DNA from: Verrucomicrobiia bacterium | GTDB lineage: Bacteria; Verrucomicrobiota; Verrucomicrobiia; Limisphaerales; Pedosphaeraceae | Reading direction: 5' to 3' | DNA: 64,000 nucleotides | Assembly (NCBI GenBank): GCA_036268055.1 | Contig: DATAUW010000006.1 | Span: 1-64,000, forward strand | In this document: positions 45,692 to 48,956 of the stretch, in pieces | Layout of the letters: the number at the start of each line of letters is the position of its first letter | How positions within the stretch are numbered: position 1 is the first letter of the stretch | Translations under genes and position numbers: made by a program | The notes under the pieces: generated by a model | Database searches by the model: none | What the model saw: the letters and a program-made list of their open reading frames with translations, nothing else | Told to the model about the DNA's origin: nothing

Positions 45692-46447
45692 ATGAACCAA
45701 AAAAAATTAACGGGTAAAGTCGCCGTCGTCACCGGCGCGTCCAAGGGCATCGGCGCCTCCATCGCGAAACATCTGGCCGCGGAAGGCGCATCCGTCGTCG
45801 TCAATTATGCGTCCAGCAAAAGCGGCGCGGACAAAGTCGTCGGCGAAATCACCGCGCAAGGCGGCAAGGCGATTGCCGTGCAGGGCGACGTCGCCAAAAA
45901 AGCGGACATTGAGCGTTTATTTGCCGAGACGAAAAAAGCCTACGGCAAAGTGGATGTGCTCGTGAACAACGCCGGCGTTTACGAATTCGGCTCGCTCGAA
46001 CAAATCACGCCCGAGAATTTTCACAAAATGTTTGACCTGAATGTGCTCGGCCTGTTGCTCACCACCCAGGAAGCGTTGAAATATATTCCCGCCGAGGGCG
46101 CCAGCGTCATCAATCTCAGTTCGCTCGTGAGCACTTACACGCCGCCGAACTCGGCGGTTTACTCCGCCACCAAGGGCGCGGTGGATTCCATCACCGGCGT
46201 GCTCGCGAAGGAATTGGGCGCGCGCAAAATCCGCGTCAACGCCATCCGTCCGGGCATGGTGGAAACCGAAGGCACGCACACGGGCGGCTTCACCAGCGGC
46301 GATTTCCGCAAGCAGTTGGAATCGCAAACCCCGCTCGGCCGCATCGGCGCACCTCAGGACATCGCCACAGCCGTGGTATTTTTGGCGTCGCCAGATTCGT
46401 CATGGATCACCGGCGAAACCTTGCTCATCGCCGGCGGATTGCGCTAA
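45692..46447 (+). CDS. Short-chain dehydrogenase/reductase
   Basis: This 251-residue classical SDR has the NAD(P)-binding motif TGASKGIGASI near residue 13, NNAG in VLVNNAGVYEFG, the catalytic Ser in VINLSSLVSTY, and the YxxxK pair in AVYSATKGAV. The PG motif is VNAIRPGMVETEG, and the C-terminus VVFLASPDSSWITGETLLIAGG is typical of the 3-ketoacyl-ACP reductase/glucose dehydrogenase-like group. Arg at the end of the second strand region suggests no clear NADP preference. The start at MNQKKLTGK was chosen over an upstream in-frame codon. The substrate cannot be told. Confidence 0.92.
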   Translation: MNQKKLTGKVAVVTGASKGIGASIAKHLAAEGASVVVNYASSKSGADKVVGEITAQGGKAIAVQGDVAKKADIERLFAETKKAYGKVDVLVNNAGVYEFGSLEQITPENFHKMFDLNVLGLLLTTQEALKYIPAEGASVINLSSLVSTYTPPNSAVYSATKGAVDSITGVLAKELGARKIRVNAIRPGMVETEGTHTGGFTSGDFRKQLESQTPLGRIGAPQDIATAVVFLASPDSSWITGETLLIAGGLR

Positions 46448-46527
46448 GCCGAGCGCGGGAAATTCTCGATTATTTCGGTCCTTCCTCCCTGCCGGGGGAA
46501 GGATCGAAACGAAAGTTTTCTAGGGCC

Positions 46528-46636
46528 ATTGTTCTTCCCTCCAGAAACCCACGCTTCTACCTGATTCCCGCCGTGGAAGCCACTGGGGGGCGGACAATAC
46601 ATTGTTCTTCCCTCCAAAAACCCACGCTTCTACCTG
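46528..46636. repeat. Direct duplication, 36 bases repeated 73 bases apart
   Basis: A 36-base sequence beginning ATTGTTCTTCCCTCC occurs at 46528-46563 and again at 46601-46636 with one difference. It leads directly into the 226-bp tandem array and is probably part of the same repeat-rich locus. Confidence 0.85.
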
Positions 46637-47300
46637 CGTTATAAATCGTCCAAGCGTTCATCGTCCACAAGCTCCGTAGGAGCGCCATGTTTATAACCAC
46701 GGTCCCCAAACCAACCAAGCTCCGTAGGAGCGGCACGACCACGACTCGATAAGCTCACCCATTAACCTCCATCAAACCTTTTTGAAGACATATCGTTCAT
46801 CACAAGGAACCTCAATTTAGAGCGGCAACTTTATCACTCCAAAAAAATTGTGCTTTCTCCCTGCATTATGAATCGCGCGAGCGTTCCTCTTCCATAAGCT
46901 CCGTAGGAGCGCCATGTTTATAACCACGGCCCCAAACCAACCAAGCTCCGTAGGAGCGGCACGACCATGACTTGATAAACTCATCCCTTAACTTCCATCA
47001 AACCTCTTTGAACACATATCGTTCATCACAAGGAACCTCAATTTAGAGCGGCGACTTTATCACTCCAAAAAAATTGTGCTTTCCACCTGCACCGATGATC
47101 GTCCAAGCGTTCCTCTTCCACAAGCTCCGTAGGAGCGCCATGTTTATAACCGCGGTCCCCAACCAACCAAGCTCCGTAGGAGCGGCACGACCACGACTCG
47201 ATAAGCTCACCCCTTAACCTCCATCAAACCTCTTTGAAGACATATCGCTCATCAAAAGGAACCTCAAATTTGTTCAAGAGATTCAAATATTCCTCCCGAA
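46637..47300. repeat. 226-bp tandem array with paired palindromes
   Basis: Nearly three copies of a 226-227-bp unit run through this segment. Each holds two copies of the palindromic GCTCCGTAGGAGCG 47-48 bases apart (46671 and 46719; 46898 and 46945; 47124 and 47171). Each also contains a segment matching the 3' end of the adjacent transposase gene (CCTCCATCAAACC to ATATCG). In the third copy that segment is the real 3' end of the gene. A seventh palindrome lies at 47777-47790 on the other side of the transposase. The 775-base gene-free stretch is thus accounted for. Confidence 0.9.
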
Positions 47301-47682
47301 ACGATTTTTTGGAATGATGCGCTTCCTGATTCTGAATATATCGGATCACCTCCGTTAATTGAGAATGCGAATACGAAAATGCGCCGAACCCTTCCTGCCA
47401 GGAAAATTTGCCCGGCATCCATTTTTGCCGGTTGATGTGGTTGGTTGACCCCGTTTTGATATCGCCCGCCAAATCGGACAGAGCGATGTTCGGTTTAAGG
47501 CCGATCAAAACATGCGTGTGATCGGGCATGCAAGAGATGGCCAAAAGCTTTTGACCCTGCCGGGTAATGACACCCGAAATGTATTTTTGCAGCTCTTCTT
47601 TATGTTCGCCGCGGATAAGACATTGCCGCGCTTCTATCACAAAGACGATTTGGACATAAATTTGAGTGTAAGTATTGGCCAT
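47224..47682 (-). CDS. REP-associated / IS200-like tyrosine transposase
   Basis: This 152-residue Y1 transposase (HUH nuclease) starts MANTYTQIYVQIVFVIEAR. The HUH motif is HTHVLIGL within CMPDHTHVLIG near residue 55, and the catalytic Tyr is in VIRYIQNQEAHHSKKSF near residue 118. Such single-domain enzymes cut and join single-stranded DNA at hairpins. The palindromic repeats flanking it on both sides, including copies of its own 3' end, are those expected of a RAYT/REP system. The gene looks intact. No tnpB is present. Confidence 0.9.
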   Translation of the reverse strand: MANTYTQIYVQIVFVIEARQCLIRGEHKEELQKYISGVITRQGQKLLAISCMPDHTHVLIGLKPNIALSDLAGDIKTGSTNHINRQKWMPGKFSWQEGFGAFSYSHSQLTEVIRYIQNQEAHHSKKSFREEYLNLLNKFEVPFDERYVFKEV

Positions 47683-47776
47683 CGGTTTGTGCCGCTCCTG
47701 CGAAGTTTGGTTAATTTAAGGCTGTTATGATCGCGTTAAGCAGTTTAATTTCCCGCGCCTTCTCCATCGTCCACAA

Positions 47777-47790
47777 GCTCCGTAGGAGCG
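47777..47790. repeat. Palindromic repeat upstream of the transposase
   Basis: A further GCTCCGTAGGAGCG lies in the same sequence context as the first palindrome of each tandem unit (followed by CCATGTTTATAACC), placed 95 bases upstream of the transposase start. Confidence 0.9.
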
Positions 47791-47816
47791 CCATGTTTAT
47801 AACCACGGTTCCAAAT

Positions 47817-48290
47817 TTACAACGGCCAAAGCACCAAACCTATAGCGGACGCCACGCCACCAATCAGACAAAGCCCTATAAGAACAAACAGCACCTTCGC
47901 CGGAGTTTTTTGATCAATCGCCAAGGCCACCATCGCCTCCCCGATCCTTTGGGTGCCGTGTTTGGCATTGGCCGCAGCGAGATAGGAAACCGGCAGTAAT
48001 GCCGCCAGGCCGGCTCCGATTCCCAGGCCTCGCCAATCATGGTCACCCATCCAGCCCAAGGCGTACAAGAAATATCCGACCAAAAATCCGGCCAGTGAAA
48101 GCGTTTTCGCCACCCGAAGCGCGTTTTTATTCTCCTCCAGCAGTTGCTTCTTTCTCTTTTTACCAACCTTCTTGGGTATCGAGGGAGCCCAGCGTTTGAC
48201 TTGCCATCGGAAAATCAGCGAGGCGACCATTGCAGAAAAAATTGCGCCGATCGGCCCACAACCGATTGATCGTAATTGTTCAGCGGTCAT
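47817..48290 (-). CDS. Uncharacterised membrane protein
   Basis: This 157-residue protein has about four hydrophobic segments (PIGAIFSAMVASLIFRW, LAGFLVGYFLYALGWMG, IGAGLAALLPVSYLAAA, LFVLIGLCLIGGVASAIGLVLW). A strongly basic stretch (PKKVGKKRKKQLLEENK) lies after the first and is probably cytoplasmic. The family was not recognised. Its end reaches into the sequence just beyond the outermost palindromic repeat, so the repeat locus may have inserted beside it. Confidence 0.6.
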   Translation of the reverse strand: MTAEQLRSIGCGPIGAIFSAMVASLIFRWQVKRWAPSIPKKVGKKRKKQLLEENKNALRVAKTLSLAGFLVGYFLYALGWMGDHDWRGLGIGAGLAALLPVSYLAAANAKHGTQRIGEAMVALAIDQKTPAKVLFVLIGLCLIGGVASAIGLVLWPL

Positions 48291-48420
48291 TTTAACTTAT
48301 GCGCAAGGTTATATCGCATTTCCTGGAACGTGTGACAGTAAACTGAATCAATCCTTAACCGCGGGCCTGCACCCTAGGTTCTAACAGGAAATTCTGCCAT
48401 TTCAAAACGGTTAAAAATAC

Positions 48421-48699
48421 TCACGGCTTTTTTTCTTTCCGGTTTTTATCGAGAATGCCGATGAGGATCAGCAGAAACGCGGTGAGCCGGATCAGGTAAA
48501 CCTGCGCCGGTAATTCCGAAGAGTTGAGTTCCAGCACGATCCGCTCAAGGCCAATCAGGAAAAACGCCGCCGCAAAAAACCCGAACAAACGGTCGTTCGT
48601 CGTTTTTTTGAAGCGCAGAAAAAACAGCGCGATCGCCCACGCCGCGATCACGATCGCGCCGGACAAAAAGGAATTGATGAGCAGCGGGTCTTTCATCAC
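48421..48699 (-). CDS. Small membrane protein, DUF5985-like (second)
   Basis: This 92-residue protein has three transmembrane helices (LSGAIVIAAWAIALFFLRF, LFGFFAAAFFLIGLERIVLEL, AQVYLIRLTAFLLILIGILD). The sequence RFKKTTNDRLFGFFAAAFFLIGLER is typical of DUF5985 proteins. It overlaps the preceding gene by four bases (48696-48699), so the two related small membrane proteins are co-translated and probably form a pair. Confidence 0.75.
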   Translation of the reverse strand: MMKDPLLINSFLSGAIVIAAWAIALFFLRFKKTTNDRLFGFFAAAFFLIGLERIVLELNSSELPAQVYLIRLTAFLLILIGILDKNRKEKKP

Positions 48700-48956
48700 G
48701 AACGCTCCCGAATCAGCCCGAACAGCAGCATAAGTAATCCGGCGAGCGTGAGGCCGCCGCGCGGCACGGAGAGGTCCACATTGGGCAGCAGGACCAAATC
48801 AACAAACAGAAGGATGTTCGTCGCGGTCAAACAGACGAAACAGCACGTGCTCCAGAACAGCAACGGCGTGTGCGTGGCGCGAAATCCCCGGAACAGCAAC
48901 ACGGCGCAGAGCATCCCCGTCAGCGCGCAAAGAATGTAAACCGTTTCTGCCATCAT
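48696..48956 (-). CDS. Small membrane protein, DUF5985-like (first)
   Basis: This 86-residue, three-helix membrane protein begins with ETVYILCALTGMLCAVLLFRGF. THTPLLFWSTCCFVCLTATNI follows, and then GGLTLAGLLMLLFGLI. It has the same layout as its downstream partner, including the Arg-rich loop between helices 1 and 2. It overlaps the genes on both sides by four bases. Such pairs are found beside histidine kinases, as here. Confidence 0.75.
   Translation of the reverse strand: MMAETVYILCALTGMLCAVLLFRGFRATHTPLLFWSTCCFVCLTATNILLFVDLVLLPNVDLSVPRGGLTLAGLLMLLFGLIRERS

Follow-up and report, generated by a model that had tools for sequence, protein, structure and literature searches.

A Y1 transposase locus with a two-hairpin repeat and a tandem array carrying the end of the gene in a member of the Pedosphaeraceae

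Next to a transposase gene of a Verrucomicrobiia bacterium (Pedosphaeraceae), a tandem array repeats the end of the gene together with pairs of a palindrome. This raises the question of what the array is: a stage in the making of the repeats that such a transposase serves, or a local product of a locus whose repeats spread in another way. Gene and array are contained in the window, the whole stretch of 64,000 nt that was analysed, and were compared with the remainder of the genome and with related loci in other genomes. From these comparisons we consider the locus to be probably REPtron-like, with a Y1 transposase and a cognate two-hairpin repeat, and the array to be a local by-product of hairpin-seeded duplication.

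Transposase gene and tandem array

The gene is located at 47224–47682 on the minus strand and encodes 152 amino acids; the Y1 transposase recognised there by the sequence-only reading is borne out by a match to Y1_Tnp (PF01797) of 84.7 bits (cut-off 23). The protein contains H55-T-H57, W95-Q96, and Y115-x3-Q119-x2-H122-H123, and so has both the HUH motif and the single tyrosine of the Y1 HUH transposases; catalytic roles for H55, H57, Y115 and the others are predicted by analogy with the family. The middle residue of the HUH motif is threonine, not a hydrophobic residue. The NCBIfam IS200/IS605 model gives 64.2 bits, above its cut-off of 55, and the model for REP-associated tyrosine transposases (REP_Tyr_transpos) 40.1 bits, below its cut-off of 80; by the latter model, the protein lies outside the canonical RAYT/TnpA-REP group (class 2). 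The nearest solved chains are the transposases 2fyx, 2xm3, and 2xma, which we take to be ISDra2 TnpA, a likeness to the IS200/IS605 elements (ISDra2, IS608). In IS608 and ISDra2 each end has a hairpin, and the two point the same way; the repeat described below likewise has two hairpins of the same orientation. The differences from IS200/IS605 are that the gene is not multicopy, that no tnpB family matches any of the four neighbouring ORFs scanned, and that a small unit is scattered without the gene. The genome contains three paralogues (30–33% identity) and one further weak PF01797 match (35.6 bits), and no near-identical second copy of the gene; the many near-identical copies of a gene mobile as a unit, which define an IS200/IS605 insertion sequence, are lacking. 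An ordinary IS200 element was considered and dropped. Two adjoining genes of the DUF5985 family (92 and 86 amino acids) are located at 48421–48956 of the window.

Tandem Repeats Finder reports a single array here, at 46628–47267 (period 226, 2.8 copies, 90% matches, score 1073; no strand assigned), in agreement with the nearly three 226-bp units noticed at the outset and with repeat families and alignment. The array is located 3' (downstream) of the stop codon, toward lower coordinates. Read in the direction of the gene, each unit comprises the last ~47 nt of the gene including the stop codon, ~35 nt, hairpin 2, a spacer, the core, hairpin 1, and a ~80-nt tail, with both hairpins inverted. Two copies of the last 47 nt of the gene, stop codon included, are found on the minus strand at 46998–47044 and 46772–46818 (each 91.5% identity, E 6.6e-15) and correspond to gene nt 413–459. 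Copying of the gene's 3' end had been claimed and stands; the length claimed, about 60 nt, does not, as about 44–47 nt are found. When gaps are allowed, the edge of the array within the gene is ambiguous, at about nt 402 to 415 in our own reading of the alignment. The outermost unit has a tail that passes over into the flanking DNA, to which the tails of the inner units show a partial resemblance; therefore, the first duplication appears to have taken in host flank. The flanking DNA (46527–46636, plus strand; repeat family and alignment) has a 37-nt direct repeat of its own beyond the outer edge of the array, at 46527–46563 and 46600–46636.

The hairpins and the core are identical across the three array copies, and the gene fragment, the spacer, and the tail drift. 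Copies A and B show 0/50 differences in hairpins and core and 24/175 in the remainder (p = 0.003), so the hairpins are constrained or homogenised. Such constancy just past the stop codon would suit an array retained because it serves a purpose itself, for instance by terminating transcription or as a platform for binding that controls the transposase or its neighbours. We regard this as very unlikely: such arrays occur at only 2 of 123 loci (see below), no Rfam family overlaps the array in a scan of 46000–48500, and hairpin constancy would also be expected under continued exchange by the transposase. The same scan gave a fluoride-riboswitch match at 46144–46195 (21.3 bits, gathering score 34), which lies inside a short-chain dehydrogenase gene and was set aside as unrelated. 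A CRISPR-like array was considered and dropped.

The two-hairpin unit and its copies in the genome

The palindrome GCTCCGTAGGAGCG occurs exactly seven times in the window, all within 46671–47790. Allowing up to two mismatches leaves the number at seven, against 0.36 expected, and seven was reached in 0/100 shuffles. Within pairs the starts are 48, 47, and 47 bases apart, the spacing of 47–48 bases already reported for them, and between array units the pairs start 227 and 226 bases apart. Each repeat unit is ~72 nt long and consists of two hairpins of like orientation with 5-bp stems, HP1-(C/A)ATGTTTATAG-~24 nt-HP2-GGCAT. Three complete units are located in the array on the plus strand, with covariance model (R1) scores in brackets: the gene-proximal one, inverted relative to the gene, at 47121–47190 (64.0 bits), the middle one at 46895–46964 (65.9 bits), and the outer one at 46668–46738 (67.2 bits). 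On the other side of the gene, the 5' palindrome that had been pointed out is confirmed at 47777. It belongs to a partial unit of HP1 and core at 47774–47830 (35.3 bits), which is on the same strand as the array units and 96% identical to the array over 51 nt; the second hairpin is missing or decayed. A degenerate inverted second hairpin, 88% complementary to the array hairpin, is found on the minus strand at 47689–47712, just 5' of the start codon; in relatives this position is taken by HP2 of the forward unit upstream of the gene. The window protein lies on a long branch in the tree described below (0.35). Because the upstream unit is broken and the branch long, the window copy of the system may be decaying.

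The evidence for the hairpins comes from covariation across relatives, because single-strand folding of the array unit is no better than that of shuffles (z -0.95 and -0.29). Folding is better than shuffles for a dispersed unit of the same genome (z -2.64) and for a unit of L109, a related locus discussed below (z -2.21). An alignment of 46 units was used, our own pick, for typical length and variety, from the 99 less redundant rows of 113. In it, 99.3% of the stem cells are paired, and 8 of 10 stem pairs have compensatory (both-side) changes. Against 500 shuffles, the covariation is reached in none on four of five measures and in two on the fifth, and sliding the stem partners destroys the signal. 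The core begins 6 nt after HP1 in 105 of 113 units. The GT(A/G)G tetranucleotide found at the 5' foot of canonical REP hairpins is not conserved at this position in the 46 units; GTAG spans the loop in many of them, variably.

Elsewhere in the 5.1-Mb genome there are eight further exact copies of GCTCCGTAGGAGCG, 15 in total, which upholds the proposal that the palindromes are a repeat family tied to the transposase. Absence of the palindrome outside the locus, which the sequence-only reading had set against itself, is refuted: R1 gives 18 matches, four of them in the window, leaving about 14 unit copies elsewhere. Aligned by eye, most dispersed copies read AAGCTCCG(T)TAGGAGCGcCATGTTTATAA, about 22 variable nt, and CAAGCTCCGTAGGAGCGGCAC. 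When the whole array was used as query, 16 matches outside the locus were found at E ≤ 1; one extends 12 nt into the tail, and 0/16 reach the gene-3' part. The 226-bp unit is thus not the general mobile unit, and the copying of the gene end is a local event, since the dispersed copies found do not hold it. The suggestion of a transposition unit spanning from the palindromes into the gene consequently fails for the dispersed copies found; for the array itself it may hold.

Of the 16 dispersed loci fetched, 12 gave 13 unit matches at 48 bits or more. An inverted second unit is present at 6 of the 12, with four of the six partners weak (20.9–27.8 bits). Compared with mechanical ORFs of at least 120 amino acids, six of the 12 sites have no overlap, two overlap by up to 3 nt, and four overlap by at least 46 nt, so the units are not cleanly intergenic. 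The locus thus has the architecture of a REPtron, inverted flanking repeats together with repeats scattered in the genome, with its own upstream unit degraded.

Association with a transposase clade and comparison with known systems

The relation between unit and protein was followed over 123 distinct loci, drawn from the best 80 of 544 relatives plus loci from further genome searches; one further search added no new locus. At 93 of these the protein identity is at least 50%, and at 30 it is below 45%, the 30 being a part only of the remoter group, with unlocated matches (most of the remoter ones and both of G549) left out. A strict pattern was defined as a hairpin, the core 3–9 nt later, and a second hairpin, within 200 nt of the gene. 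Homologues of at least 50% identity have such a unit upstream, pointing at the gene, in 60/90 cases and downstream, inverted, in 52/90, with both flanks occupied in 36/87; it is absent upstream of 30/90 and downstream of 38/90. Units in the opposite orientation were found at 6/90 upstream and 13/90 downstream. One dinucleotide shuffle per flank gave the strict unit in 0/90 upstream and 0/90 downstream flanks, a control spot 1.2–1.4 kb upstream gave it at 1/81, and paralogues under 45% identity gave it at 0/30 on each side. A tree of 116 of the proteins sets the homologues of at least 50% identity apart by a single branch (support 99/93, bootstrap not fully settled); its labels denote identity (>50% or <45%), not presence of the unit.

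At the level of whole genomes, R1 finds units in 20/20 genomes with a close homologue and in 8/20 without; at least four units are present in 19/20 and 6/20, respectively (p = 4e-5). These counts are lower bounds, from 123 candidates scored per genome, and part of R1 derives from flanks in the group with a close homologue, so that the 20/20 is partly by construction and the count of at least four units is the fairer one. The 40 genomes were picked by us, 20 with a match at E ≤ 1e-40 and 20 without. One genome without a close homologue has as many as 19 units. As far as these counts go, the association of unit and protein is strong but not exclusive, because 8 of the 20 genomes without a close homologue have units.

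Close copies of the gene are few per genome (32 matches in 31/320 genomes and 12 in 10/213). Viral contigs gave eight pattern matches and no relative, and relatives are present in 2 of 72,556 plasmid records. The low copy number and the near-absence from viruses and plasmids point to a resident REPtron gene, not a roaming insertion sequence. The unit-bearing records, mostly metagenome bins in which single phylum labels may be wrong, are labelled Verrucomicrobiota, Acidobacteriota, Bacteroidota, Ignavibacteriota, candidate division KSB1, Candidatus Poribacteria, Candidatus Neomarinimicrobiota, and, once, Planctomycetota. A genome of the same family, among the nearest relatives of the genome studied here (G002), has a homologue identical to that at locus L057, from an uncultured Pedosphaera sp., which fits a Pedosphaeraceae-like host.

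Some loci carry further arrangements of hairpins. Runs of at least three hairpins in the same direction are seen in the flanks of L061, L070, L104, and L113 and in the downstream flank of L148, the last with almost no spacer; therefore, arrays of the monomer also exist in relatives. When unit sites of genome G067 were compared with G060, G075, and G099 in search of a site empty of the unit, no such site was recovered: the right flank alone aligned, and the G067 units lie within a ~250-bp repeat. Four copies of this repeat (L180, L181, L182, and L183) have long inverted ends with a convergent pair of two-hairpin units inside, as if the pair were riding inside a MITE-like repeat.

Near the remoter Y1 paralogues (L001, L004, L010–L035, and L143–L145), another inverted repeat of larger size is often found on the flanks; by eye it is made up of a long hairpin with a small one on either side. 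L001 and L004 are in the genome studied here, at C11:182164–182586 and C10:134298–134738. An inverted flank repeat is present in 22/30 remoter paralogues and a direct one in 13/30; pairing with the flanks of a neighbouring locus gave 5/30. The whole class may be repeat-associated.

By its motifs, the protein falls into subclass 1.2 of the TnpA-Y1 transposases. It shares with that subclass, as tabulated in 2018, Y-x3-Q-x2-HH, WQ, a length of ~150 amino acids, and a low copy number. Y-x3-Q-x2-HH is found in 89/93 close homologues and in 28/30 remoter paralogues, and WQ in 93/93 close homologues. The assignment would thus hold by motif, not by a tree with the sequences of the 2018 survey. The HUH motif is DHTH here and DH[IV]H in the 2018 table. 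In Table 1 of Quentin et al. 2018 (PMC6006769), subclass 1.2 is entered with REP "no" and is mostly from Cyanobacteria and Bacteroidetes; here, in contrast, a repeat unit is tied to the protein. We read the units at 60/90 and 52/90 flanks as correcting this entry; alternatively, the clade could lie outside the sample of that survey. Literature searches by name gave no report of repeats for subclass 1.2 among the matches listed, and searches by repeat sequence no relevant report among the matches listed.

The canonical RAYT/TnpA-REP systems of Proteobacteria (REPtrons, BIMEs, and REPINs), with which a 2021 paper on REP recognition is concerned in the parts drawn on here (PMC8266576), have in common with the present one a mostly single-copy Y1 gene and inverted palindromic repeats that flank it and are scattered in the genome. 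They differ in that there is no 5' GTAG guide here and the hairpins form a same-orientation pair with a TTTATAG core; by sight, the window protein has no NP(L/V) motif following its tyrosine, and it is nearer to IS200/IS605 TnpA. The class 3 Y1 proteins of the 2018 survey also have atypical hairpins in a REPtron-like setting, but their table entry gives NHVH, W followed by T or A, and the foot CnGA. Identity with class 3 was dropped in view of DHTH and WQ and of the lack of such a foot here.

Among the TIRtrons of Di Nocera et al. 2013 (PMC3733652), some tyrosine transposases are described as having "double palindromic TIRs" around them, and one group of the TIRYTs there is Acidobacterial; Quentin et al. 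2018 (PMC6006769) equate subclass 2.1 with TIRYTs as probable. Double palindromic repeats and an Acidobacterial group are thus shared with the present system, and a partial earlier sighting of the two-hairpin unit among the "double palindromic TIRs" is possible, as compared by the description in that text, its figure aside. The CGTC repeats of the same paper, described as having 8–9 bp stems and no transposase, were dropped.

Capture of the gene end and origin of the array

Arrays containing the 3' end of the gene were found at 2 of the 123 loci (E ≤ 0.001, within 2 kb), the window and L109. In L109 the period is 131, and the copies begin at gene nt 412–413, compared with 413 in the window; each is followed by inverted hairpin DNA, and the last is cut by the end of the contig. 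The L109 gene (4001–4462) encodes DLAH in place of DHxH, and its branch is about eight times that of its sister L069 (0.39 compared with 0.046). Because the first histidine of the HUH motif is lost, the L109 protein is probably not making the array now. Copies of the gene end are absent from L069, the nearest tree relative of L109, and from the nearest relatives of the window gene, so two separate origins of the arrays are likeliest. A control in which each gene was compared with the flanks of the next locus gave 0/123 matches. A profile of the last 66 nt of the gene, applied with minus-strand loci left out, found extra copies in the window and L064 only and missed L109. The arrays may be undercounted, because repeats break short-read contigs and the L109 contig ends inside its array. 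In the remoter locus L015 (G040 C416), the opening 47 nt of the Y1 gene recur (87% identity) about 860 nt before the stop codon of that gene, some 400 nt upstream of the start.

For canonical systems, Nunvar et al. 2010 (PMC2817692) report four BIMEs built with the rayt 3' end and the sequence up to the downstream REP, and the same text proposes a mechanism driven by the RAYT for these gammaproteobacterial cases. Capture of a gene's 3' end accordingly has a precedent there; here it concerns another branch of the family and another repeat. A link between copying of the gene end and processing of the hairpins is plausible, because the capture recurs in L109 and was reported for canonical RAYTs in 2010.

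The array could instead have arisen by ordinary tandem duplication, through slippage of the polymerase or an unequal exchange between short repeats; the transposase would have no part in it, and the hairpins would do no more than make the region fragile. This origin, which the sequence-only reading had also set against itself, we take as a serious but doubtful alternative. The array units differ from each other by about 10%, their tails partly resemble the flanking host DNA with its own direct repeat, the gene-3' part has no other occurrence in the genome, and the periods of the two arrays are unlike (226 and 131), all as expected of such an event. It accounts less well for nearly the same gene end, from about nt 412 to the stop codon, being captured in a second, separate lineage, for the four similar cases described for canonical RAYTs in the 2010 text, and for the finding that the 93 closer loci hold no copies of any other gene part (within 2 kb, E ≤ 0.001). 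Searched over whole loci, other gene parts gave weak short matches in L099 (E 5.5e-4) and L130 (E 8.9e-4).

The similar capture points raise a further alternative, namely that a cryptic cleavage site at gene nt 411–416 serves as an alternative end and that the segment from codon ~138 to the outer hairpin is added in tandem through a single-strand circle or strand transfer. Copies begin at nt 412–413 in both arrays; L064 has a damaged full-length second copy of the gene whose internal deletion has its right edge at about nt 416; and in our own reading, L109 has CGGCATG at that point, like the right end of its upstream unit. The instances are, however, two arrays and one deletion only, the window site has no CGGCAT motif, and this end does not recur among the dispersed units found. 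The agreement of the capture points between the window and L109 is suggestive, not proof, because the window edge is ambiguous with gaps (about nt 402–415). A cryptic end of this kind is unlikely. It is equally improbable that the array represents the birth of a repeat unit, in which the cryptic end at codon ~138 and the outer hairpin foot would define a single-strand intermediate that is stacked in tandem, independently in at least two subclass 1.2 lineages.

The array is thus most likely, and most simply, a local duplication seeded at the hairpins. By analogy with IS608, ISDra2, and TnpA-REP, the transposase would be predicted to bind the hairpins of the unit as single strands, to nick near the core or the CAT-rich right end, and to move two-hairpin units in trans. 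A nick made at the downstream inverted unit, or a fork stalled there, could then have led to tandem duplication of a segment that starts at gene codon ~138, spans the unit, and takes in about 80 bp of flank, and slippage or unequal exchange afterwards would have given nearly three copies.

At the level of sequence, the units flank a gene family in inverted orientation, covary in their stems, occur dispersed over the genome, and are found more often in genomes that have a close homologue; on these grounds we regard the system as a new subtype of REPtron. This suggests a REP/RAYT way of life that extends beyond the class 2 proteins and class 3. A clade closer to the active IS200/IS605 transposases would possess a cognate repeat of its own with a different structure, found in seven or eight phyla according to the record labels, and would offer a second system for asking how a transposase comes to serve short repeats in trans. 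That two lineages have captured the 3' end of the gene echoes the gammaproteobacterial cases of 2010, and the formation of the arrays would be testable with small proteins and oligonucleotides.
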